Of a stretch of DNA of 23,226 nucleotides, positions 3,611-15,935 are shown piece after piece. Numbering within the stretch: the first letter of the stretch is position 1; every line of letters starts with the position of its first letter. The position numbers and the translations under genes are program-made. The stretch is from a virus. The DNA lies in IMG/VR virus record IMGVR_UViG_3300001848_000267, positions 1-23,226 of that record; one strand, 5' to 3'. The notes below the pieces were generated by a model. It was not told the DNA's origin and did not search any database. It was given only the letters and a program-made list of their open reading frames with translations.

Positions 3611-4236
3611 TGGCTGACTCCGACGTGCTGATCACTGCCGGTTCTGGCACCAAGATTGACACACGCACCGTCGGGCCCGGAGTCGATGAACATCGCCAAG
3701 TGATCGTGGTCGGCGATCCGACCACCAACACCAGCGTCGCCACCGTCACCGCCAACGGCCAGCTGCAAGTCATCGGGCGCGACCTGCAGCGTTCAAGCGC
3801 CACCATTAGCGGCATCTCAACCTCGGGTGCCGCCTACGTCGCCGGTAACCAGATCGGCACGCTCACCACCATCACCAACGCTGCACGCGCCACCGGCGGC
3901 TCCGGAGTCCTTACCGGCATGGTCATCGCCGACGCCGGTACGGCTCTCAGCGCAGTCGACATCTATCTGTTTGACCAGTCGATCACCCCGACCTCGACCG
4001 ACAAGACAGCGTTGAACATCGCGACCACCGACATCGCCAAACTTGTCCAGGTGGTGCAGTTGACAGGCCCGTTCACCACCACCTCGTCACGGCATGTGCA
4101 AGCGCAGAACATCAGTGTTCCGTACACCTGCTCAGGTGGCACCAGCCTCTACGCGTTGCTGGTCGCTCGAGCCGCGAACGCGATCTTCGGCGCGTCGGAA
4201 ACTCTCACGCTGATCTGCTACTTCGAACGGTTCTGA
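3610..4236 (+). CDS. Putative virion structural protein
   Basis: This 208-residue protein begins MADSDVLITAGSGTKIDTRT, followed by EHRQVIVVGDPTT and later VDIYLFDQS and SLYALLVARA. The same layout (a GSGTKIDTRT-type strand, then HRQVIVIGDP) occurs in small structural proteins of marine and freshwater siphoviruses, usually called hypothetical or virion protein. The composition is beta-rich with many Thr, Ser and Ala and no transmembrane segment. Its ATG overlaps the previous TAA, so translation is probably coupled. It belongs to the block of four genes inserted between portal and protease. A surface or decoration protein is the best guess, but no catalytic motif supports anything more specific. 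Confidence 0.7.
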   Translation: MADSDVLITAGSGTKIDTRTVGPGVDEHRQVIVVGDPTTNTSVATVTANGQLQVIGRDLQRSSATISGISTSGAAYVAGNQIGTLTTITNAARATGGSGVLTGMVIADAGTALSAVDIYLFDQSITPTSTDKTALNIATTDIAKLVQVVQLTGPFTTTSSRHVQAQNISVPYTCSGGTSLYALLVARAANAIFGASETLTLICYFERF

Positions 4237-4237
4237 A

Positions 4238-5083
4238 ATGGCGCTCACCTTTGGTGCGGCAACGTCCGACCGAGCAGCCCAACTGTCCTCAATGGCAGCA
4301 GCGACCAACACTGTCGGTCTTATTGCCGGCTGGTGGTATCCGACCACGTTGACCGCTGGCCGGTTCTATTTCTCGGCAGCGGCAAGCAGTTCGACCATCA
4401 ACTACGGCATCAAAGTCGGCACCACGACCAGCACGCTGCAAATGAACAGTTGCACCACAGTGTCCGGCCTGTGGACGGCAACCGCCGATGCAAACGTATT
4501 CCCGAGTGGCATCCAAACCGACAAGTGGTGGTTCATCGCCGGCGCTTACAGCGTGGTGTCAACACCAGCAGTCGCTTGGGTGATGTGGTTGGGTGACGCT
4601 CAAACACCACCGACCCCGATGACGGTAGTGCAGAACACTGCACCCACAACCGGCTTGACATCCAGCAACCTCAGCGTCGTCGGCAATAGCAGCACGACCG
4701 GTACTGATTCGTTCCAAGGCGACATCGGCACCGTTCACATCATCAACTCCACAATCTCAACCAGCTACCAGTTCGGCATCCCTGTCGCTACCGGTGGCGT
4801 CATCACCAGCGCCGAACAAACCCTCATTGAGCAACGCCTCGTCAACCCTCTTTGGCGTGGCGATACACCTCGACCCAACTGGTTTCCCGGACGGACTGGC
4901 ACCGTGTCAACCACCTACGACATGACCACCAACCCGCCGACGTACAGCTACGCGTCGGGTCTGACAGTGACGAGGTCTGCAGTCGGCACTGCGTCGGGAA
5001 TGACCGTGTCCAGCCGTCGTGAGCCCGTCGTCCGAGATCAGCGACAACTTCTGCAGCCGCCTCCCCTGACAAGCAGGATTTGA
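4238..5083 (+). CDS. LamG/concanavalin-like jelly-roll virion protein
   Basis: The 281-residue sequence looks like a LamG/concanavalin A-type beta sandwich. Residues 1-200 show alternating hydrophobic strands. Typical landmarks are the segment around KWWFIAGAYSV (about 88-98), which pairs with the final strand FQGDIGTVHIINSTIS (about 157-172), and a terminal helix SAEQTLIEQRLVNPLW. After residue 220 the sequence turns into a low-order tail ending in an Arg/Gln/Pro-rich stretch quite unlike the rest. This could be a genuine basic tail or the mark of a frameshift near the end. Such domains often bind sugars, so a role on the capsid surface is possible. It starts one base after the previous stop. 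Confidence 0.65.
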   Translation: MALTFGAATSDRAAQLSSMAAATNTVGLIAGWWYPTTLTAGRFYFSAAASSSTINYGIKVGTTTSTLQMNSCTTVSGLWTATADANVFPSGIQTDKWWFIAGAYSVVSTPAVAWVMWLGDAQTPPTPMTVVQNTAPTTGLTSSNLSVVGNSSTTGTDSFQGDIGTVHIINSTISTSYQFGIPVATGGVITSAEQTLIEQRLVNPLWRGDTPRPNWFPGRTGTVSTTYDMTTNPPTYSYASGLTVTRSAVGTASGMTVSSRREPVVRDQRQLLQPPPLTSRI

Positions 5084-5084
5084 T

Positions 5085-5831
5085 ATGTCGTTGTTGCTGC
5101 TACTGAAATCCGGTGGCGCAGCAGGCATCACCGGCACGGTTGCTCGCACCAACGCCAACGACACCAGCACCGCCACCGGCAGCGTCACGACTTCTGGCAC
5201 GGTCGCACGTACCAACGCAAACGACACCAGCACCGCCACCGGCAGCGTCACCACCTCGGGCACTGTCGCCCGCACCAACAACAACGACACCAGCACTGCG
5301 TCGGGCAACGTCACCAGTTCGGGCAGCTCGGCCACCATCAACGCCAATGACACCGGCATCGCATCCGGATCAGTTACCGCCAGCAGTGTCACCGGCACGT
5401 CGGTTACCACCAACAACAACGACGCAACCGTTGCAGCCGGTTCGATCACCACCTCCGGCACTGTCGCCCGTACCAACAACAACGACACCAGCACCGCAAC
5501 TGGCGCGGTGTCGTCACCGCTGACCGGCACCAGCACCACCATCAACGCCAATGACATCGCCACCGGGTACGGCGCCGTCATCGACCCGAACCAAGGTGGC
5601 TCGAGCCCGGAACGTGGGTTTGTCAACCCCTTACCACCCCACCAACGGATCAGCGGGTTCGTAGCCACACGCAACCAGTCCGATGTGGCCACCAGCATCG
5701 GCGTCATCCACGACCTGATCGCCGCCACGGCTGACATCACCCGTCTTGACGATCACTATCAGTTCAACCTCATCGTCGCCGGCTGGGAACACGCCGAACG
5801 TGACGACGAAGACCTTCTCCTTCTCATCTAG
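5085..5831 (+). CDS. Repeat protein with leucine-run termini, probable virion fibre/decoration
   Basis: Residues 17-168 consist of seven repeats of 21-24 residues with consensus GTVARTNxNDTSTATGSVTT. The first three copies are nearly identical and the later ones drift. The DNA repeats accordingly with a 63-base period (5133-5588). The protein is bracketed by hydrophobic leucine runs, SLLLLLKS at the start and EDLLLLI at the very end, with a non-repetitive 80-residue C-terminal part (HQRISGFVATRNQSD...) before the second run. Short Thr/Asn/Asp/Gly repeats of this kind occur in phage fibrous and decoration proteins. No enzyme motif is present. It is the last of four genes between portal and protease. 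The copy number could vary between relatives because neighbouring repeats are almost identical. Confidence 0.75.
   Translation: MSLLLLLKSGGAAGITGTVARTNANDTSTATGSVTTSGTVARTNANDTSTATGSVTTSGTVARTNNNDTSTASGNVTSSGSSATINANDTGIASGSVTASSVTGTSVTTNNNDATVAAGSITTSGTVARTNNNDTSTATGAVSSPLTGTSTTINANDIATGYGAVIDPNQGGSSPERGFVNPLPPHQRISGFVATRNQSDVATSIGVIHDLIAATADITRLDDHYQFNLIVAGWEHAERDDEDLLLLI
5133..5588 (+). repeat. Seven in-frame tandem repeats (63-72 bp)
   Basis: Unit boundaries read from the translation are 5133-5195, 5196-5258, 5259-5321, 5322-5393, 5394-5456, 5457-5525 and 5526-5588. Unit lengths are 63 bp in five copies, 72 bp in the fourth and 69 bp in the sixth, always a multiple of three. The two Asn codons and the Asp-Thr pair of the NxNDT core recur in nearly every copy. 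Copies 1 and 2 encode the same residues but differ at synonymous positions, which points to selection on the protein after duplication. Confidence 0.9.
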
Positions 5832-5839
5832 GAGGCTCC

Positions 5840-6628
5840 ATGAGTGCATCCAAGAAACCGATCGAACGGCGCATGTTCAACGCCGACATCGAGGTTCGCA
5901 GCAACGCAGACGGCACCGTCGGCCTGCGCGGCTACGCGGCCGTGTTCGACAGCGAAGCCCACGGCGAAGTCGTGCGCGCCTCGGCGTTCAACACCACCTT
6001 AAAGCAGCGCGACAACGTGCGCCTCCTGGTGAACCACGACGGCATCCCGATGGCGTCCACCAAGGCCGGCACCATGACCCTGTCGGTCGACCAGCGTGGC
6101 CTCCTCGTTGACGCACCGTCGCTCGACCTGGCCAACCCGACCGTGCAAGAGCTGGTGTCCGCCATGAACCGTGGCGACATTGATCAGATGTCGTTCGCGT
6201 TTGCCGACCTGTCACCGGTCAAGAAGAACGCCAGCGTGCGCGAGATCACCGACTGCGTCCTCTACGACGTCAGTGTGGTCACGTACCCCTGGTATGAGGC
6301 CACATCGGTCGGCCTGACCGGTGACCGTGACATGGATCGTGCGCTCGTCTTGTTGCGCAGCCTCAACCCCGACCAGCTGCGAGAGGTCACCGTCATCGCC
6401 CTTGAGGGCGACGTCACCGTGTCCAACGTGACCGACAACAGCGTCGAGGACGAAGCCGACGACGCCGAAGAACTGTGCCCCAGTTGCGGCGCAGAATGCC
6501 CCGACGGCGCCAACTACTGCCCGTCCTGCGGCACACCCATCGCCCCCGCCACCGACCCCGTCGCCGTGGCAAGCGAACCGGCACGCATGTACAGCGTCGC
6601 CGAAGCCCGAGCACTGCTCGGCCTCTAA
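5840..6628 (+). CDS. Prohead maturation protease with C-terminal zinc ribbon
   Basis: HK97-family serine protease that cleaves the capsid protein's N-terminal scaffold during head maturation. The core (about residues 10-165) includes LRGYAAVFDS, the active-site His66 in LLVNHDG, the nucleophile Ser118 in QMSFAF and the strand YDVSVVTYPWYEAT, all as expected. The unusual part follows an acidic linker (VEDEADDAEE): Cys213, Cys216, Cys227 and Cys230 form two CPSCG knuckles ten residues apart, a classic zinc ribbon, plus an extra Cys220. The last 15 residues (MYSVAEARALLGL) resemble the usual C-terminal helix of such proteases. A very strong ribosome site AGGAGG (5831-5836) precedes ATG 5840. It is followed by the capsid gene. 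Confidence 0.93.
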   Translation: MSASKKPIERRMFNADIEVRSNADGTVGLRGYAAVFDSEAHGEVVRASAFNTTLKQRDNVRLLVNHDGIPMASTKAGTMTLSVDQRGLLVDAPSLDLANPTVQELVSAMNRGDIDQMSFAFADLSPVKKNASVREITDCVLYDVSVVTYPWYEATSVGLTGDRDMDRALVLLRSLNPDQLREVTVIALEGDVTVSNVTDNSVEDEADDAEELCPSCGAECPDGANYCPSCGTPIAPATDPVAVASEPARMYSVAEARALLGL

Positions 6629-8424: not shown

Positions 8425-9009
8425 ATGTCGAGCTATGTGACGCTGGCACAGTTCAAGGACTACGCACGCAACGAGATCACCGCGTCCGACGACACGGTCC
8501 TGCAGCTCGCCCTCGATTCGGCCGAAATGTTGATCAACAACTTTTGCGGCCGCACTTTCTACGTCGCCGGTGCCGCATCGGCACGGTCCTACAGTCCCGC
8601 AACTCGAGGCGCCAAAGTGCTGCCGATCCACGATTGCACTTCGGTGACGTCGATCGTGGAAATGAACCTGACGCTTGACACCAGCACCTACCAGCTGGAA
8701 CCCCTCAACGGGATCACACCGGCCGGTGACAGCCGACCGTACGACCGTATCCGCCGATACGGCTCCGTCTGGTTCTGGGACGACAGCAAGGCTCGCATCG
8801 TCGTCACCGCCACCTGGGGCTGGGCTTCGACCCCGTACCGAGTGCAGGAGGCGACCTACATCGTCGCCAAAGACATCTACCAGCAGCGCAACACCAACGC
8901 CGGCGTCGCAGGGTTCGGCGAGTTCGGCGCCGTTCGTGTCCGCATGAACCCGATTGCCATCGACCTGCTGACACCATTGCGTCGCGCTGAAGCGATCGGT
9001 ATCGCGTGA
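8425..9009 (+). CDS. Head-tail connector (gp6-like adaptor)
   Basis: The protein docks under the portal and joins the head to the tail. The 194-residue sequence starts YVTLAQFKDYARNEITASDDTVLQLALDSAEMLINNFCGRTF, the characteristic opening of the gp6-like connector family: a short helix, then a helix carrying the conserved A...I...FCGR pattern. Beta strands follow (VTSIVEMNLTLDTSTYQLEP, ARIVVTATWGW), then a late helix VQEATYIVAKDIYQQRN. Placement after the capsid and before the tail-end gene fits. AGAAAGG lies before ATG 8425. The end overlaps the next gene by four bases (GTGA). Confidence 0.88.
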   Translation: MSSYVTLAQFKDYARNEITASDDTVLQLALDSAEMLINNFCGRTFYVAGAASARSYSPATRGAKVLPIHDCTSVTSIVEMNLTLDTSTYQLEPLNGITPAGDSRPYDRIRRYGSVWFWDDSKARIVVTATWGWASTPYRVQEATYIVAKDIYQQRNTNAGVAGFGEFGAVRVRMNPIAIDLLTPLRRAEAIGIA

Positions 9010-9467
9010 CCATCAACCTGCAAACCATTCGTGAAGGCGTCGAGGCACGCCTTCAAGACGCGTTCAGTGCGAACGGTCTGAGCATCACCATTCATCCGTG
9101 GCTCATCAACGATGACGTGTATCCGATCGTCACCGTGATGCCTGGCAGCCCACTGATCGAATACCACACCACCTACGGTCAAGGACTGTCGCAGATCAAC
9201 CTGATCATCGAGGTGCGCACCACCGCCGCCGACCCGATCTCGGCACAGATCGCGCTGTCAAGGTTCACGAACGCCGGCACCGGTGAACCACGATCCATCA
9301 TCGACGCACTCGAAGCAACCCTTGGCGGCAACACACCCACCCTGAACGGTGTCGTCGAGAACGTGATGGTCGTCGACTGTGCCATCAACAACGGTGAGCA
9401 GCTCGGTTCTGGTGTGTACGAGTTTGCTGCCACGTTCAACGTCCAAATCCTCGCGAGGAGAAACTGA
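9006..9467 (+). CDS. Putative tail terminator / tail-end protein
   Basis: This 153-residue alpha/beta protein sits between the connector and the tail-tube genes, the usual place of the protein that caps the tail where it meets the head. The pattern is an N-terminal helix (LQTIREGVEARLQDAF), a strand IHPWLINDDVYPIVTVMPG, the strand LSQINLIIEVRTTAADPISAQIALSRF with a following helix, and a terminal beta hairpin VYEFAATFNVQILARR. This arrangement fits tail terminators of the lambda gpU/gp10-like class, although the call rests on layout and position more than on a diagnostic motif. The GTG start overlaps the preceding stop by four bases; ATG of the next gene overlaps this stop. Confidence 0.65.
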   Translation: MTINLQTIREGVEARLQDAFSANGLSITIHPWLINDDVYPIVTVMPGSPLIEYHTTYGQGLSQINLIIEVRTTAADPISAQIALSRFTNAGTGEPRSIIDALEATLGGNTPTLNGVVENVMVVDCAINNGEQLGSGVYEFAATFNVQILARRN

Positions 9468-10198
9468 TGGCCGCATTCGCATTGACCAACGTGTCGATCA
9501 CGCTGGACGGCACCACCGTCACCGGTTTCGCCAACAGCGTCGACGCGAACGCTTCCGCCGACATGCTGGACTTCACGACGTTCGCTTCGGGCTCGTGGAA
9601 GACGATGAAGCCCGGCTTCCAGTCGTTCACGCTCAACCTCAAAGGCTTCCAGGATTATGCCACCAACGGCCTCGATCCTGCGTTCCCGCTCGCCTCGGCC
9701 GGTGGCACCGACACGTTCACCGTCGCTCCCACCGGTGGTAGCAACGTCGCCGATCTCGCCTATTTCGGCCAAGGCCTGCTGACCAACTACCACCCGTTGA
9801 CCGGCGCCATCGGACAACCAGCGAACTTTGATTTCACCTGGACCGGCATCAACCAGTTCGTGCGCGGCCAGGTGCTGCACCCCTCGGCGGCACGCACCGC
9901 CACCGGCAACGGCACCGCCACACCGTTCACCACCCCCACCGCCACACAAGCGCTGTACGCAGCGTTCCATGTCACCTCGGTGACCGGCACCGGCTCGATC
10001 CAGTTCAAGGTGCAAACCGCCAACAGTTTGGCGTTCACCACGCCGAACGACCGCATCACCTCACAGTCGTTCACCGCCGCCGGCGGACAGTTCACCTCGC
10101 TCGCCGGTGCACTTGCCGGCGAAACCCACGTCCGCACCACATGGACCATCACCGGGTTCACGTCGGTCACGTTCACGGTCGCCGCTGGCGTCCTCTAG
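9467..10198 (+). CDS. Tail tube protein, longer paralogue
   Basis: A beta-rich 243-residue protein that starts MAAFALTNVSITLDG. Residues 30-66 (ASADMLDFTTFASGSWKTMKPGF...LNLKGFQDYA) align by eye with residues about 47-88 of the next protein, so the two are paralogues. Tail-tube proteins of siphoviruses share this layout: opening strand, the DFTT-F-SGSW segment, then a Gly-containing turn and strand. After residue 140 an extra Thr/Ala/Gly-rich beta segment (about 145-243) looks like an added C-terminal domain, as often seen on the outside of tail tubes. GAGGAGAAAC lies directly before ATG 9467. Which of the two is the main tube subunit cannot be told from sequence. Confidence 0.7.
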   Translation: MAAFALTNVSITLDGTTVTGFANSVDANASADMLDFTTFASGSWKTMKPGFQSFTLNLKGFQDYATNGLDPAFPLASAGGTDTFTVAPTGGSNVADLAYFGQGLLTNYHPLTGAIGQPANFDFTWTGINQFVRGQVLHPSAARTATGNGTATPFTTPTATQALYAAFHVTSVTGTGSIQFKVQTANSLAFTTPNDRITSQSFTAAGGQFTSLAGALAGETHVRTTWTITGFTSVTFTVAAGVL

Positions 10199-10225
10199 TC
10201 CTCCCACCATCAAGGAGCAACCAAC

Positions 10226-10723
10226 ATGGCAGCATTCAGCCTCACGTCGGCCACCGTGCTGATCGGCACCACCTGGACCGGCACGGCGCCTGGAGACCCC
10301 GGCACCCAGACCGTGTCCGGCACGATCACCACGTCGACCAACATCTCGACGATGCTCACTCAGGTCGACGTCGGCCTGACGGTGGCACAGCTGGAGATCA
10401 CCAACTTCGGTTCGGGTGGTTGGAAGCAGAACACGGTCGGCCTGAAAGAAGGCACTCTGCAGCTGAACTTCAACCAGGACTTCACCGCATCGCAGATCGA
10501 CGCTCTGTTCGGCATCGGCGGTTCGGCGATCCCGTTCGGCGGTTCCGGCACCTACTACGTCGACGTAAAGCCGACCAGCTCGGCACGGTCGACGACGAAC
10601 CCCAGCTACTGCTTTCAGGTGTACAACACGCAGTATCAGCCGATCTCCGGTCAGGTCGGTTCGCTCGCCGTCGGCCAGCTGCAGCTGACGATCACCGGTC
10701 AGATCGCACGCCTCACCGCCTGA
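10226..10723 (+). CDS. Tail tube protein, shorter paralogue
   Basis: A 165-residue protein that starts MAAFSLTSATVLIGT, echoing the first residues of the preceding protein, and continues with LEITNFGSGGWKQNTVGLKEGTLQLNFNQDF in parts matching it. The length is typical for a single-domain siphovirus major tail protein without an Ig-like addition, and it directly precedes the tape-measure region. Sequence features are TFG-like strand pairs, SGTYYVDVKPTSSARST and a final strand LAVGQLQLTITGQIARLTA. CAAGGAGCAACCAAC before ATG 10226 is a good ribosome site after a 27-base gap. It is likely the main tube subunit because of length and position; this is inference. Confidence 0.75.
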   Translation: MAAFSLTSATVLIGTTWTGTAPGDPGTQTVSGTITTSTNISTMLTQVDVGLTVAQLEITNFGSGGWKQNTVGLKEGTLQLNFNQDFTASQIDALFGIGGSAIPFGGSGTYYVDVKPTSSARSTTNPSYCFQVYNTQYQPISGQVGSLAVGQLQLTITGQIARLTA

Positions 10724-10724
10724 C

Positions 10725-11186
10725 GTGGACGACCTCGCCGGCCTGCAGCGCAAGATCGAACTCTTGGAGAAAGAGTTCTCGGGTGCTGCAGGTCGTCAAC
10801 GTCTCACACGCGTCGCCGTCCAAACCAAGAAAGACGTCGACGAGGCAGTCCGAGACACGCTCGGCGACCAGTCGATGTCCGGATGGCGACGCAAAAAACC
10901 GATCGTCATCAAAGGCCGGTTCGACATCGTGTCCGACCACGAGTTCAACCTGAAACCCAACATTCCGGGACCGATGGTGGTGCTCGAGTTCGGGCGCAAC
11001 TTCGGGCGCAGCGGACCGGTGGAGCGTTACAGCAAGAAGACCGGCCGGCGTCTCAAGTCAAAACGGTGGAATGGTCACACACCGGCCAAACACACCTGGT
11101 CAAAAGCGTCAAAGTTGGCCGAACAGCGCGCACCGGGCCGTGTGCACGCTGAGGTGCACAAGACGTTGGTCAAGTTCTTCGGTTAG
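10725..11186 (+). CDS. Conserved phage protein between tail tube and tape measure
   Basis: A 153-residue, strongly basic protein. The N-terminal 45 residues form helix (LAGLQRKIELLEKEF, then VAVQTKKDVDEAVRDTLG). A beta section follows with MSGWRRKKPIVIKGRFDIVSDHEF and PGPMVVLEFGRN, and then a Lys/Arg/His-rich end. The combination of an N-terminal helix with MSGWRR and VLEFGR recurs in actinophages as a protein of unknown role, as far as I recall; the VLEFG part resembles gp10-type neck proteins. It occupies the place where tail assembly chaperones normally sit. GTG 10725 is one base past the preceding stop. The function is uncertain. Confidence 0.6.
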   Translation: MDDLAGLQRKIELLEKEFSGAAGRQRLTRVAVQTKKDVDEAVRDTLGDQSMSGWRRKKPIVIKGRFDIVSDHEFNLKPNIPGPMVVLEFGRNFGRSGPVERYSKKTGRRLKSKRWNGHTPAKHTWSKASKLAEQRAPGRVHAEVHKTLVKFFG

Positions 11187-11222: not shown

Positions 11223-12743
11223 GTGGCACTGACCGATCGCGTTCAAGTCATCATTGACGTGGTCACCAACAAGGCCACGCAAGGGCTCAAGGACTTCCGT
11301 TCGGCGGTCGGTGAGGCACAAGGTTTCACCGGCAAGCTCAAAGCCGGCGTGTCGTCGCTCGCATCGACGTTCAGTGGTGCGATCTCCGGTCCTGTCGGGA
11401 TGGCGGCAGCGGTCGGCACGGCAGCAAAGATTGCTGGCGACGCCGTCATGGATTACGTCAACCTGGGGGAGCAGGTCGGCAACTTCAGTGCTGCCACCGG
11501 TCTTGCCACCGAGGATGCGTCACGTTGGCTTGAGGTTGCTAAAGACCTCGGTGTTGAGGCCGGGACGCTTGAGTCGGCGATCGGCAAGCTCAACAAGTCG
11601 ATCGACCCGAAACTGTTCAAGGATCTTGGCGTTGAGATTGCGCACACGTCGACGGGTGCTGTCGATGTGAACGGCACGTTCTTGAACGTCATCGACCGGC
11701 TGCGTGAAATCCGTGACCCAGCGGAGCAGGCTCGTGTTGGTGCGCAGCTGCTCGGCAAGGGCTGGCAGTCGGTTGCTCCGATCATTGCTCGGTCGGCCGA
11801 AGACATCAAGGGTCAACTCAAAAGCGTTGCCGACGTCAAGGTGTTCAGCGAAAAAGAAGTAAAAGCGACGCAGAAAATGAAGGCGTCGATGAATGACCTC
11901 AAGGACTCTGCCGAAGAACTAAAACTGACAGTCGGTCAAAAACTTGCTCCCTCGGCCACCACTGGCGCTGCCGGTTTGACGAAGGTCGCCGACGCAATGA
12001 TCAAAGTCAACGACCAAGCTTCTCCGACTCAATCGGGAGTCAATGCCATTATTGGTTTTTTTAGCAGTCTCAACAACGTGATTGACTATTTCACCAGTGA
12101 CACGCCAAAGATCGTCGATGGAAGCAAAGCGATCGCCAACCTTGGCGAGTCGGCCACCGGTTCGCAGCGTTACCTTGGCCTGTTGGCACAGCAGCTGCAT
12201 GACGCCAGCGGTGCAGCGGACGACTTCGGCGGCAAGGCCGAGTACGCGAAGAAGCAACTGAAGATCCTGCAAGATCAGATCAGCGGTCGATCCTCGTTCA
12301 TCGACCTGGCGCAACAGCTCAAGGACAACGCCGCCAAGATCAAAGACCTCGAAAAACAATACGCAGACCACAAGATCACGGCAGAGGACTACTACCTTGG
12401 CGTGGCCAAGGCGGCGCTTGACTCAAAGGGCGCTGTGGCCGATTACGTGAGCACGGTTGACGCGATCTCCGAGGATCAGAAGTTGCAGATCACGGCTGAA
12501 CTGGATCCGGCTAGTCCCGGCAACATGATCAAAACAATTGACAACGCACTGATCAACCACACGTTCCAAGTCACTGCCGAAACCAACATCGAGACACGTC
12601 GAGGCACCAGCGGCGGCATGGGTGGTGGCGGAGCGACGTTTCAAGTCAACGTCTACCCCGGCGCAGGTGACGCTGAGACCGGACGTCGAATCGTGCAGTC
12701 GATCCAGGCGTACTACCGCGCTGGTGGGAACAGGTTGAGCTGA
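11223..12743 (+). CDS. Tape measure protein (short)
   Basis: Sets tail length and probably helps DNA entry. The protein is 506 residues, helix-rich, with Ala, Lys, Asp and Gln. It has an N-terminal helical region (TNKATQGLKDFRSAVGEAQ), a hydrophobic stretch at about 52-72 (GAISGPVGMAAAVGTAAKIAG) and the segment FSAATGLATEDASRWLEVAKDLGV that is characteristic of phage tape measures. A long helical region with coiled-coil-like periodicity follows (330-400), then a Gly-rich hinge and FQVNVYPGAG...RRIVQSIQAYYRAGG at the end, as in other tape measures. At roughly 1.5 angstrom per residue it predicts a tail of about 75 nm. GAAGGGGAACC precedes GTG 11223; the stop overlaps the next start (TGATG). 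Confidence 0.9.
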   Translation: MALTDRVQVIIDVVTNKATQGLKDFRSAVGEAQGFTGKLKAGVSSLASTFSGAISGPVGMAAAVGTAAKIAGDAVMDYVNLGEQVGNFSAATGLATEDASRWLEVAKDLGVEAGTLESAIGKLNKSIDPKLFKDLGVEIAHTSTGAVDVNGTFLNVIDRLREIRDPAEQARVGAQLLGKGWQSVAPIIARSAEDIKGQLKSVADVKVFSEKEVKATQKMKASMNDLKDSAEELKLTVGQKLAPSATTGAAGLTKVADAMIKVNDQASPTQSGVNAIIGFFSSLNNVIDYFTSDTPKIVDGSKAIANLGESATGSQRYLGLLAQQLHDASGAADDFGGKAEYAKKQLKILQDQISGRSSFIDLAQQLKDNAAKIKDLEKQYADHKITAEDYYLGVAKAALDSKGAVADYVSTVDAISEDQKLQITAELDPASPGNMIKTIDNALINHTFQVTAETNIETRRGTSGGMGGGGATFQVNVYPGAGDAETGRRIVQSIQAYYRAGGNRLS

Positions 12744-14677
12744 TGGCTGCATGGAGAGACGGTGCGACCGTCACTGTCGAGGTGGCGTTCACCAACTCGC
12801 CGCTGACCGCCGTCGCATCATGCACATGGGTCGACGTGACCGCCTACGTTCGCAACTGGAACGTCCGTCGAGGCCGCACCAGCGAACTATCGAATTACAG
12901 CCCTGGCACCGCCACCATCACGCTCGACAACCGCAGCCGGCTATTTGACCCGTCAAACACGGCTGGCGCCTATTACGGCAACTTGGTGCCGATGAAGAAG
13001 GTACGGATCAGCGCTTCATCGGGTGCGACGTCGTCATCGGTGTTTGTCGGCTACATCTTGGGCTGGCCGATTGAGTACGCCGGCATGGTTGACTCGACCG
13101 TCACCATCCAAGCGGTCGACGCGTTCAAGGTGTTGGCGCAGACCGCACCGCCAGCGAACGCGTATGAGGCGGTCGCTCGAGCGGACAGCCCGTACGCCTA
13201 CTGGGCGCTGGACGAGATTGACACAGGTGGTAATTCGCCTGCGTTGATCGGCGGTGTCGATGCCAGAAACCTCAACCAGGGCGACCCGAACTATTCGGCG
13301 CCAGCCGATTTCACGATCACTCGTCCGGTTGGGCCGACGACCACGAAGGCCAACGCCGGTTGGGCAGCGATCGGTGACAGCACCAGCTCGTTGGCAACAA
13401 ACTCGCCCAAGACGATTGAGGGCTGGTTCTGGAACTACAACTACGGCGTGTCGGGCGGCAGCGACATTGCTCGTGTCGCCAAGGACTCCACAAATTGGAT
13501 TCGCCTGGCGGTTTCTGCAACTGACGGCACCGTATCTGTCGGCTACAGCAACTCGACGGACACGAGGTCATATGCTTTTGCGGCGATCGGCTGGCAGGTG
13601 TCGTCGGCGCTGGTGCATCTGGTACTCACTGCCTCAACGACGACGCTGACGCTGTACTCGAACGGTGTGCAGGTGTGGCAAGGCAACCTGTCGGCAGTCA
13701 CCTCAACGAACACGTTTGCCACGTTGCCGCCACCGTCAATGCAGGCGGTCGCACAAATCCGTGCCAGTGCACCGACCACACCAGCGATCTACGGGCTCGC
13801 TATCTACAGCACCAACCTGACCTCAACACAGGTCACGACGCACTATGTGGCCGGTTTGACCGGGTGGGGTCATCCGTTGGGCGATCGTGCCGGCACCCGC
13901 ATCGGACGCATCCTGGACGCCATCGGCTGGCCTGCCGGCGATCGTGACGTCGCCACCGGATCCACAGTCCTCGGCACCTACAACAGCAACTCGTCAGCGT
14001 TGGCGGCCTGCCAAACCCCAGCGGATGCGGAACAAGGTCTGCTGTTCATCGGCAAGGACGGCAAAGTCGTGTTTCGTGACCGGCAATGGCTGTTCACGAA
14101 CTCGTCGGCACGCACCTCGACCGCCACGTTCGGCGACAGCGCCGGCGAAACGCCGTACAACGACATCGAGATCGACGGCAACCATGTCGACTGGCTGCGC
14201 AACACGGTGACCGTGTCATTCACGAACAACAGCGTCACCGTCGCCGATTCGACCTCGGTTGCTGCGTACGGTGTCCAGGACGACAGCGTGTCGGCTGGTG
14301 ACCTGCCGGCGTCTGGCACATGGCTGGCCCGCCAACTGGCGGCCTATCGGTTGCGGCTTCGCAAAGATCCGAAGACTCGTATCCCGTCGATCAAAGTGCT
14401 GCCTCGAGTTGCAACGGCGACGCATCTGCCGACGTTGTTGAACCTTGAGATCGGGAACCGTGTCACGGTGACACGTCGACCGACCGGCGGCACCGGCACG
14501 TTCTCTCAGGCGTGTTTTGTGCAAGGCATTAGCCATCAGGTGACCCCGGACAACTGGATCACCCAGCTGTATCTGGCACCGACCGTCCCGTCGTACACGG
14601 AGGCGCCGTATTTGACGCTTGGTGATGCCACCTACGGCAAGATCGGCGTCGCAACCGGCAACAAGATCCCCTACTGA
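12743..14677 (+). CDS. Tail hub / minor tail protein with inserted LamG-like domain
   Basis: The 644-residue protein follows the tape measure, where the tail-tip hub is encoded. Residues 1-140 resemble the distal-tail/hub start (VTVEVAFTNSPL, YVRNWNVRRGRTSELSNYSPGTATITLDNRSRLFDP). Residues about 145-372 form an inserted LamG/concanavalin-like domain starting with ADSPYAYWALDE, a signature of such inserts, and ending with YGLAIYSTNLTSTQVTTHY. The hub fold then resumes at GRILDAIGWPAGDRD and ends with a VTRRPTGG...CFVQGISHQVTPDNWITQLYL segment typical of baseplate hub C-termini. The LamG part probably contacts sugars on the host surface (inference). The start overlaps the tape-measure stop. Confidence 0.85.
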   Translation: MAAWRDGATVTVEVAFTNSPLTAVASCTWVDVTAYVRNWNVRRGRTSELSNYSPGTATITLDNRSRLFDPSNTAGAYYGNLVPMKKVRISASSGATSSSVFVGYILGWPIEYAGMVDSTVTIQAVDAFKVLAQTAPPANAYEAVARADSPYAYWALDEIDTGGNSPALIGGVDARNLNQGDPNYSAPADFTITRPVGPTTTKANAGWAAIGDSTSSLATNSPKTIEGWFWNYNYGVSGGSDIARVAKDSTNWIRLAVSATDGTVSVGYSNSTDTRSYAFAAIGWQVSSALVHLVLTASTTTLTLYSNGVQVWQGNLSAVTSTNTFATLPPPSMQAVAQIRASAPTTPAIYGLAIYSTNLTSTQVTTHYVAGLTGWGHPLGDRAGTRIGRILDAIGWPAGDRDVATGSTVLGTYNSNSSALAACQTPADAEQGLLFIGKDGKVVFRDRQWLFTNSSARTSTATFGDSAGETPYNDIEIDGNHVDWLRNTVTVSFTNNSVTVADSTSVAAYGVQDDSVSAGDLPASGTWLARQLAAYRLRLRKDPKTRIPSIKVLPRVATATHLPTLLNLEIGNRVTVTRRPTGGTGTFSQACFVQGISHQVTPDNWITQLYLAPTVPSYTEAPYLTLGDATYGKIGVATGNKIPY

Positions 14678-14694: not shown

Positions 14695-15306
14695 ATGCCC
14701 GACGCCGGCCTGGCTGATGGTTCGGTGCTGACCAGCGCCAACTATGACACCTATCTGCGGCAGCAGGTGGTGGCACAGATGACGACGGTGACTCGTCCGA
14801 CCGGTGTTGAGGGTCGTCTGATCACGACGACGGACTCGAAGCGTGTCGAGTGTTACGACGGTACGAACTGGGTGCGTGTGGCGAACTACACCGCAGCCGG
14901 TCGTTCCGGCGTCCAGTTGGCACGCGTTGCAGCCCAGTCGATTGCGAGCAACACGGCGACGTTCACGGCGGTCTCGTGGGATACGGAAACCACTGACACC
15001 GACAACTACATCGTCGCCCCGTCGGACACGATCACCATCCCGACCGGGCTCGGCGGTCTGTATGCCATCAGTGCGGTGTTGGCGTGGGCGTCTTCGCCCG
15101 GTGCGAACAGCAGCATCGAGGTCTTCGTGAACGGCACCACCTCGTGGCGTCATCCGATCGGTGCCGGCACCCAAATGACGACGTGTTCGATGTCGGTGGT
15201 AGTGCCGGTCGCTGCCGCACAGACCGTGCAGGTGCGTGTGTCGCAAGGTTCTGGTGCTGCGATCAACATCACCGGAAACCTCGAAATGTGGAGGCTGTCA
15301 GCATGA
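14695..15306 (+). CDS. Probable receptor-binding tail protein (C1q/TNF-like)
   Basis: A 203-residue protein. Residues 1-25 (ADGSVLTSANYDTYLRQQVV) match the tail-attachment helix of many siphovirus tail-fibre proteins. Residues 45-65 hold an RLITTTDSKRVECYDGTNWVRV strand pair. Residues 80-203 look like a C1q/TNF-type jelly roll, with strands ending in LEMWRLS as the trimer-forming last strand. These suggest a short trimeric fibre tip that binds the cell surface; the fold is inferred from pattern, not proven. GGAGGACGTT before ATG 14695 is a strong ribosome site. The end overlaps the endolysin by four bases (ATGA), linking receptor and lysis genes. Confidence 0.7.
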   Translation: MPDAGLADGSVLTSANYDTYLRQQVVAQMTTVTRPTGVEGRLITTTDSKRVECYDGTNWVRVANYTAAGRSGVQLARVAAQSIASNTATFTAVSWDTETTDTDNYIVAPSDTITIPTGLGGLYAISAVLAWASSPGANSSIEVFVNGTTSWRHPIGAGTQMTTCSMSVVVPVAAAQTVQVRVSQGSGAAINITGNLEMWRLSA

Positions 15307-15935
15307 TCGAGTTCCCGCCCGTTGAAATGCCGTCCGATCTGACCGGTGTGGCAAACGGTCGCCTCGGGCCGTGCAACCTGACCGATGTCTTCTTCGTCGG
15401 TGTCGGCCACCTGTCAATGCATCCGCTCGCAGCTCGTGCGTGGCACGCAATGACAGCGATCTGCAAAGCAGAAACCAAAGCTGACCTGTCAACGACCGGC
15501 GCCTACCGCCCGTTCGACGCCCAACTGCAACTGTTCAACGAGCGATACACGCCGACGTATCTGCCGCTGCGGAACGTCCTCACCAGCCAGCGCACCTACC
15601 AGGGCAAGACCTGGTATCTGCGTCGAGGCTGCGCACCAGCTGCAACGCCAGGCACCAGCAATCACGGTTGGGGTATCGCAATCGACAGCGCCATCGCCGC
15701 ACCCACCTATGACCCGACCGCCAAAGTGTGGGTCACGAAGATCGTCGGGATTACCGCCGATCCAAAGGTGTGGCAGTGGGTGCAGGACAACGCAATGTCG
15801 TTCGGGTTCGGCTGGGAAGGCGCCAAACCGGGTATGTCGGGCTGGGAACCGTGGCATCTGCGCTATTGGGCCGGCGACCGTATCCCGCAGCGCGTCCTTG
15901 ACGTCGAGGCATGGTTCGCAGGAGCGAAACCGTGA
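15303..15935 (+). CDS. Endolysin, M15-family D,D-/L,D-peptidase
   Basis: A zinc peptidase that cuts peptide bonds in peptidoglycan and releases virions. The VanY/M15 signature SNHGWGIAID lies at residues 119-128 (His121 and Asp128 as zinc ligands). The second motif EPWHLRY at 182-188 gives the catalytic Glu182 and the third ligand His185. GAYRPFDAQLQLF (66-78) is the conserved Tyr-Arg substrate segment. At 210 residues it is a single catalytic domain, with a short C-terminal extension and no visible cell wall-binding repeat or signal peptide, so it needs a holin. Upstream in-frame codons are open, but ATG 15303 overlapping the previous stop is the sensible start. Confidence 0.92.
   Translation: MIEFPPVEMPSDLTGVANGRLGPCNLTDVFFVGVGHLSMHPLAARAWHAMTAICKAETKADLSTTGAYRPFDAQLQLFNERYTPTYLPLRNVLTSQRTYQGKTWYLRRGCAPAATPGTSNHGWGIAIDSAIAAPTYDPTAKVWVTKIVGITADPKVWQWVQDNAMSFGFGWEGAKPGMSGWEPWHLRYWAGDRIPQRVLDVEAWFAGAKP

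Follow-up and report, generated by a model that had tools for sequence, protein, structure and literature searches.

The tail of phage SPP1 is described as containing a plain tube protein, gp17.1, together with a decorated form, gp17.1*, in a 3:1 ratio, the decorated form arising by frameshift (PMC6316719). In phage T5, the rings of the tube protein pb6 are described as trimers, and the tube domain of pb6 is duplicated (PMC9022992, PMC10038345). The T5 protein p140, a tube-protein paralogue that lacks the Ig-like domain, is reported to form a ring between the tube and the distal tail protein (PMC10038345). The tail-tube decorations listed in a review are Ig-like (PMC9022992). Several named isolates carry a long tail-tube gene (233–250 aa) followed by a short one (137–144 aa) upstream of the gene for the tape measure: Laroyevirus (Laroye gp64/65), Ottawa (gp39/40), Kovu (gp61/62), ValentiniPuff (gp64/65), and the Microcystis phage Mae-JY09. 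In Laroye, Wheelbite, Waltz, Kovu, and Ottawa, both genes of the pair are annotated as major tail proteins; the annotations are minor and major tail protein in ValentiniPuff, and hypothetical and major tail protein in Mae-JY09. An announcement of Cluster DJ Gordonia phages mentions two major tail proteins (PMC10652937), and a paper on Laroye names one major tail subunit gene, 64 (PMC5513430). Because the pair is present in named isolates and often already annotated as major tail proteins, tandem tail-tube genes are known; however, no paper explaining them was found in the open-access literature searched. Relatives with only one, short, tube gene include Rhodococcus REQ1, Madraxi, Shagrat, and Jflix2 and Pontimonas phiPsal1.

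The DNA analysed here, called the window, is an IMG/VR virus record of 23,226 nt with a siphophage-like morphogenesis module. The genes are arranged in the order TerL, portal, protease, major capsid protein, head-tail adaptor, tail terminator, MTP1, MTP2, small basic protein, and tape measure, and a tyrosine integrase is encoded downstream of the module. The long tail-tube protein MTP1 (243 aa, positions 9467..10198) and the short tail-tube protein MTP2 (165 aa, 10226..10723) form the same long-short tandem as in the named isolates; these two genes, their neighbours, and the elements mapped within and before them are on the plus strand. Matches of the neighbours to PHROGs place the pair between the tail terminator (9006..9467; phrog_17840, E 8.5e-8), which is the 5' neighbour of MTP1, and the tape measure protein (11223..12743; phrog_2276, E 1.9e-15). 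The gene for a basic 153-aa protein is located between MTP2 and the tape measure (10725..11186). This protein has no match in PHROGs, Pfam, or NCBIfam, and its homologues are found at the equivalent position in relatives. A 644-aa protein encoded 3' of the tape measure (12743–14677), whose sole strong match is phrog_5313 with unassigned function (E 3e-47), is probably the distal tail or hub protein.

MTP1 and MTP2 are paralogous tail-tube proteins. The original prediction of tandem tail-tube paralogues of different length was based on a common MAAF-LT start and an aligned SGSWK/SGGWK segment with the strand that follows it, features that both proteins indeed have, and it is borne out by sequence, fold, and family profiles. 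BLASTP aligns the two proteins with 29% identity (E 5e-11). Their local alignment score is 135, compared with a maximum of 74 among shuffled sequences, and none of 2000 shuffles reached 135. The similarity is confined to residues 1–140 of MTP1; the score of the C-terminal part of MTP1 against MTP2 is no better than that of shuffles (838 of 1000 reach it). In the comparison with known tail-tube families, both proteins match PHROGs families labelled "major tail protein", although the best families differ (phrog_9522, E 2.8e-28, for MTP1 and phrog_4574, E 1.2e-12, for MTP2). Neither has a tail-tube match in Pfam or NCBIfam.

The structure of MTP1 was predicted by AlphaFold2 with 31 relatives (pLDDT 83.4, pTM 0.79). 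Its tail-tube domain, residues 1–136 (9467..9874), aligns with MTP2, and residues 5–140 match solved tail-tube proteins of monocin (Z 8.9 and 8.7), R4C (8.7), and 80alpha (8.6). For MTP2, the only model is that of a read-through construct of which it is the second half (overall pLDDT 71.4, pTM 0.50), and this half matches tail tubes with Z up to 11.1. Thus both proteins have the tube fold, a beta-sandwich with a long β2–β3 hairpin, and the folds of the two are similar, as the original prediction required. Foldseek alignments to T5 pb6-type structures that were longer than 450 columns had an rmsd above 22 and were disregarded. The SGSWK motif of MTP1 (residues 41–45, 9587..9601) is located between strands 22–35 and 47–61 of the model, at the tip of the long hairpin, and is aligned with the SGGWK motif of MTP2 (residues 63–67, 10412..10426). 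The long hairpin loop is described as one of the quaternary-contact regions in known tube proteins (PMC9022992). The joint model of MTP1 and MTP2, considered for lateral or stacked packing, has a pTM of 0.50 and is unusable for contacts.

Each of the two genes has its own start codon and likely ribosome site, GAGGAG for MTP1 (9455..9460, duplex energy −8.9) and AAGGAG for MTP2 (10212..10217, −7.7), and the window therefore does not have the SPP1-type frameshift origin of the longer protein. The genes are separated by 27 nt and are in the same frame. Read-through of the MTP1 stop codon, producing an MTP1-MTP2 fusion, was rejected as a conserved mechanism: the stops of relatives vary between TAG, TGA, and TAA, and the frame of the two genes relative to each other varies as well. 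In 25 pairs, with loci L113, L126, L030, and L129 left out, the mean ribosome-site energy is −8.70 for MTP1 and −8.17 for MTP2, both strong. The codon use of both genes is capsid-like (ranks 2 and 4 of 19 genes) in a comparison for which the start of the major capsid protein gene, which starts from 6730, was taken one codon early.

The long-short pair recurs. A total of 36 distinct contig pairs was collected, the window included, and the long gene is first in all of them, followed by the short gene wherever the downstream sequence suffices; in L127 the start of the short gene is close to the contig end. In MTP2, strands 1 and 2 are separated by an insertion of approximately 20 residues (about residues 14–34, 10265..10327) that is without counterpart in the single tail-tube proteins of related phages. 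When 81 loci were sorted by the MTP2 insertion pattern, with loci repeating a contig dropped and L020 counted as having the insertion, the long gene was upstream in 34 loci with the insertion (one of them fused), and two were unjudged (L006 and L036; the long gene of L006 is on another piece of the same contig, L109). Among loci without the insertion, 6 have the long gene upstream, 32 do not, and 7 were unjudged. In L127, the stretch separating the long and short tail genes (5709–6422) is several hundred bases longer than in L126, and a long gap is also present in L044. Tblastn searches of named phages with MTP1, two divergent MTP1 relatives, a stand-alone jelly roll, and the jelly roll of the window gave no result, and neither did scans of genome contigs. 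The long proteins of the Laroyevirus type have no tblastn link to MTP1.

In locus L004, MTP1 and MTP2 are in one open frame of 419 aa (3693–4952). This may be a real fusion, similar to T5 pb6, or a sequencing error, because the near-twin L005 has a stop codon at the MTP1/MTP2 junction. L004 is the only one of the examined loci with two tube domains in one frame. In the window, MTP1 and MTP2 have a single tube domain each, whereas one chain of T5 pb6 contains two copies of the tube domain plus an Ig-like domain.

The extra beta region foreseen in the longer protein comprises residues 137–243 of MTP1 (107 aa, 9875..10195), and all of its secondary structure in the model is beta strand. This domain is not part of the tube; its fold is a jelly roll, and its relatives are the capsid-decoration (cement) proteins of phages. 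The two best structure matches of residues 129–243 are the BPP-1 cementing protein (3j4u_H, Z 10.2) and the Carin1 decoration protein (8cjz, Z 9.6); other jelly rolls have lower scores, among them IBDV VP2 (Z 8.9), STNV (7.9), and CBM4-2 (7.4). When PDB sequences were searched with a profile of 27 MTP1 C-terminal domains, built without stand-alone proteins, the Carin1 "Capsid Decoration Protein" was identified with E 1.3e-6, and the next match has E 0.15. The sequence match of the window's family to BPP-1 is weak, with E 0.066 when a stand-alone row was included in the profile, and is not listed without that row. One of the 27 domains touches Pfam BIg21 (E 0.026). The best structure matches of the MTP1 C-terminus are jelly rolls, but the absence of an Ig-like match by itself excludes nothing. 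Foldseek also aligned MTP1 with SPP1 Dit over 275 columns (E 2.6e-6), but with an rmsd of 12.6. Assignment of MTP1 as a distal tail protein was rejected by gene position: MTP1 precedes the tape measure, and a Dit gene would be expected after it.

The long proteins of the named isolates also have jelly-roll-related C-terminal domains. The best PDB sequence match of the Laroyevirus-type domain is the BPP-1 cementing protein (E 1.8e-5), and the domain matches both of the other jelly-roll profiles, that of the tails of the window's family and that of the stand-alone proteins. The decoration proteins of BPP-1 and Carin1 are separate capsid proteins, whereas the jelly roll of the window is fused to a tail-tube subunit. 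Among the titles and abstract openings screened in the open-access literature, none described a tail tube bearing a jelly roll of the capsid-decoration kind. The nature of the extra domain of MTP1 and its relatives in head modules are new, whereas the tandem arrangement is already in public annotation.

Stand-alone relatives of the MTP1 jelly roll are encoded in head modules. A stand-alone relative encoded in L124 was used as a query and identified 49 loci, and the preceding large gene encodes the major capsid protein in nine of the ten stand-alone loci tested, with no match in L182. The profiles of the tail and stand-alone domains match each other in hhalign (97.8%, E 1e-12). Twelve of 16 stand-alone proteins match phrog_9522, in its C-terminal part in the one alignment inspected. 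The stand-alone profile matches the BPP-1 cement protein weakly, with E 0.041, no better than designed proteins. L001, the nearest relative of the window (81% in MTP1), has both a fused and a stand-alone jelly roll. The stand-alone copy is located between the capsid gene and the tail genes in L001, L004, L005, and L109, and L079 and L087 have a stand-alone jelly roll upstream as well. A six-frame search of the window at E 1e-3 detected no stand-alone jelly roll, and the sole copy is the one fused to MTP1. Since there is no separate head-module gene, the MTP1 jelly roll is regarded as a related domain and not as a member of the capsid-decoration proteins.

In the jelly-roll tree, the tail domains of the window's family fall into a single clade (100/99), and all stand-alone domains are on one side of a branch (97/92); therefore, the capture of the domain was not recent. 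The topology is equally compatible with a single capture and with two. L166 (ORFs from 4591 and 4938) and L177 (ORFs from 4470 and 5875) each contain two stand-alone jelly-roll ORFs close together, which are perhaps two different decorations.

In the tree of tube domains, MTP2 clusters with the single tube proteins of relatives, apart from MTP1, at a branch that is not fully supported (90/88). The long and short domains of the Laroyevirus type group together, apart from the family of the window (100/99), which may reflect separate duplications or gene conversion. Conservation was compared in 25 contigs, giving 300 non-independent pairs, with four Laroyevirus-type loci left out. In 295 of the 300 pairs, conservation is higher for MTP2 than for the MTP1 tube domain (mean identity 0.448 and 0.300, respectively), and in 283 it is higher for the jelly roll than for the tube domain of its own MTP1. 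In Laroyevirus-type records, the short protein is likewise better conserved than the long one. From these sequence comparisons, MTP2 can be read as the plain, most constrained tube subunit.

Since the longer gene ends in a domain of capsid-coat type, the phage tail probably combines plain and decorated forms of one tube subunit. That MTP2 is the plain and MTP1 the decorated subunit of one tube, as in SPP1 but with two genes, has about an even chance of being correct. Each protein would be produced abundantly from its own ribosome site, and both would be incorporated into one tail tube of stacked rings, with MTP2 as the plain bulk subunit. MTP1 would dock through the same conserved hairpin loop and carry its jelly roll on the outer surface of the tail. 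A partly decorated tube may thus have arisen by gene duplication and capture of a head-decoration domain, with no frameshifting. The weakest step is the function of the jelly roll, which would probably stabilise the surface or bind glycans. The mixed tube is preferred because both genes look well expressed; the position and ratio of the subunits are what we infer. Evidence against it is that the mean ribosome site of MTP1 is slightly the stronger one, which is at odds with a rare MTP1, and that the faster evolution of the MTP1 tube domain may point to a special ring. The likeness to SPP1 consists in the combination of a plain and a C-terminally extended tube protein, and in the window the two would be mixed within one tube. 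In SPP1, a single gene with a +1 frameshift gives identical tube domains and an FN3 decoration, whereas the window has two diverged genes and a jelly roll.

The original prediction offered alternating rings or a specialised tube-end component as roles for the second copy, and either may apply. An arrangement in which the tube consists almost entirely of one paralogue, with the other confined to a single terminal ring, is possible, but rather unlikely. MTP1 could be the bulk subunit with MTP2 as an undecorated terminal ring similar to p140, or MTP2 the bulk with MTP1 as a head-proximal or tip ring. T5 provides the precedent, as it combines, within one tail, a tube protein and a paralogue without the decoration domain (PMC10038345). 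The tube domain of MTP1 has the highest evolutionary rate, which would be in keeping with a special ring; the MTP1 gene is also on the terminator side. However, strong ribosome sites and capsid-like codon use in both genes argue against a single-ring role for either.

It is distinctly unlikely, in our estimate, that one domain family serves head and tail in the following sense: a cement jelly roll was captured by a duplicated tube gene, the paralogues co-assemble into a heteromeric tube, within rings or in alternating rings, and the domain does the same job on both surfaces in phages similar to L001. A heteromeric tube with a 1:1 ratio, with three copies each of MTP1 and MTP2 per ring or with alternating rings, is improbable. 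The pseudo-hexamer of pb6, with its trimer rings of the duplicated tube domain, offers a model for it (PMC9022992, PMC10038345), and the two genes stay paired in 36 distinct cases and are joined in one frame in L004. Nevertheless, the evolutionary rates of the two tube domains are unequal, the joint model has no confident arrangement, and the L004 frame may be a sequencing error. It is highly improbable that the C-terminal domain has no particular tie to capsid decoration and is just a jelly roll or carbohydrate-binding module of a general kind: the Z scores of IBDV VP2, STNV, and CBM4-2 are not far below those of the decoration proteins, but Carin1 was found by sequence profile well ahead of the next match, the stand-alone relatives sit after the capsid gene, and a second tail-tube family leads to the BPP-1 cement protein.

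A tube subunit with a cement-type jelly roll that has stand-alone versions in head modules, sometimes with both in one genome, represents a surface domain common to head and tail. The reason why many phages keep two tube genes becomes testable, as isolates with the pair exist (Laroyevirus), and therefore the copy number and position of the two proteins are directly measurable.

Elsewhere in the window, the protein encoded at 5085–5831 consists mostly of imperfect repeats of approximately 20 residues with a high content of T, N, D, and S. The protein encoded at 15306–15935 resembles D-Ala-D-Ala carboxypeptidases, with weak matches to VanY/VanXY, and its matches in PHROGs are endolysin and tape measure. 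The prohead protease (5840–6628) has a C-terminal zinc ribbon (Pfam Zn_Ribbon_1, E 8e-8), which to our knowledge is unusual in this protease family.
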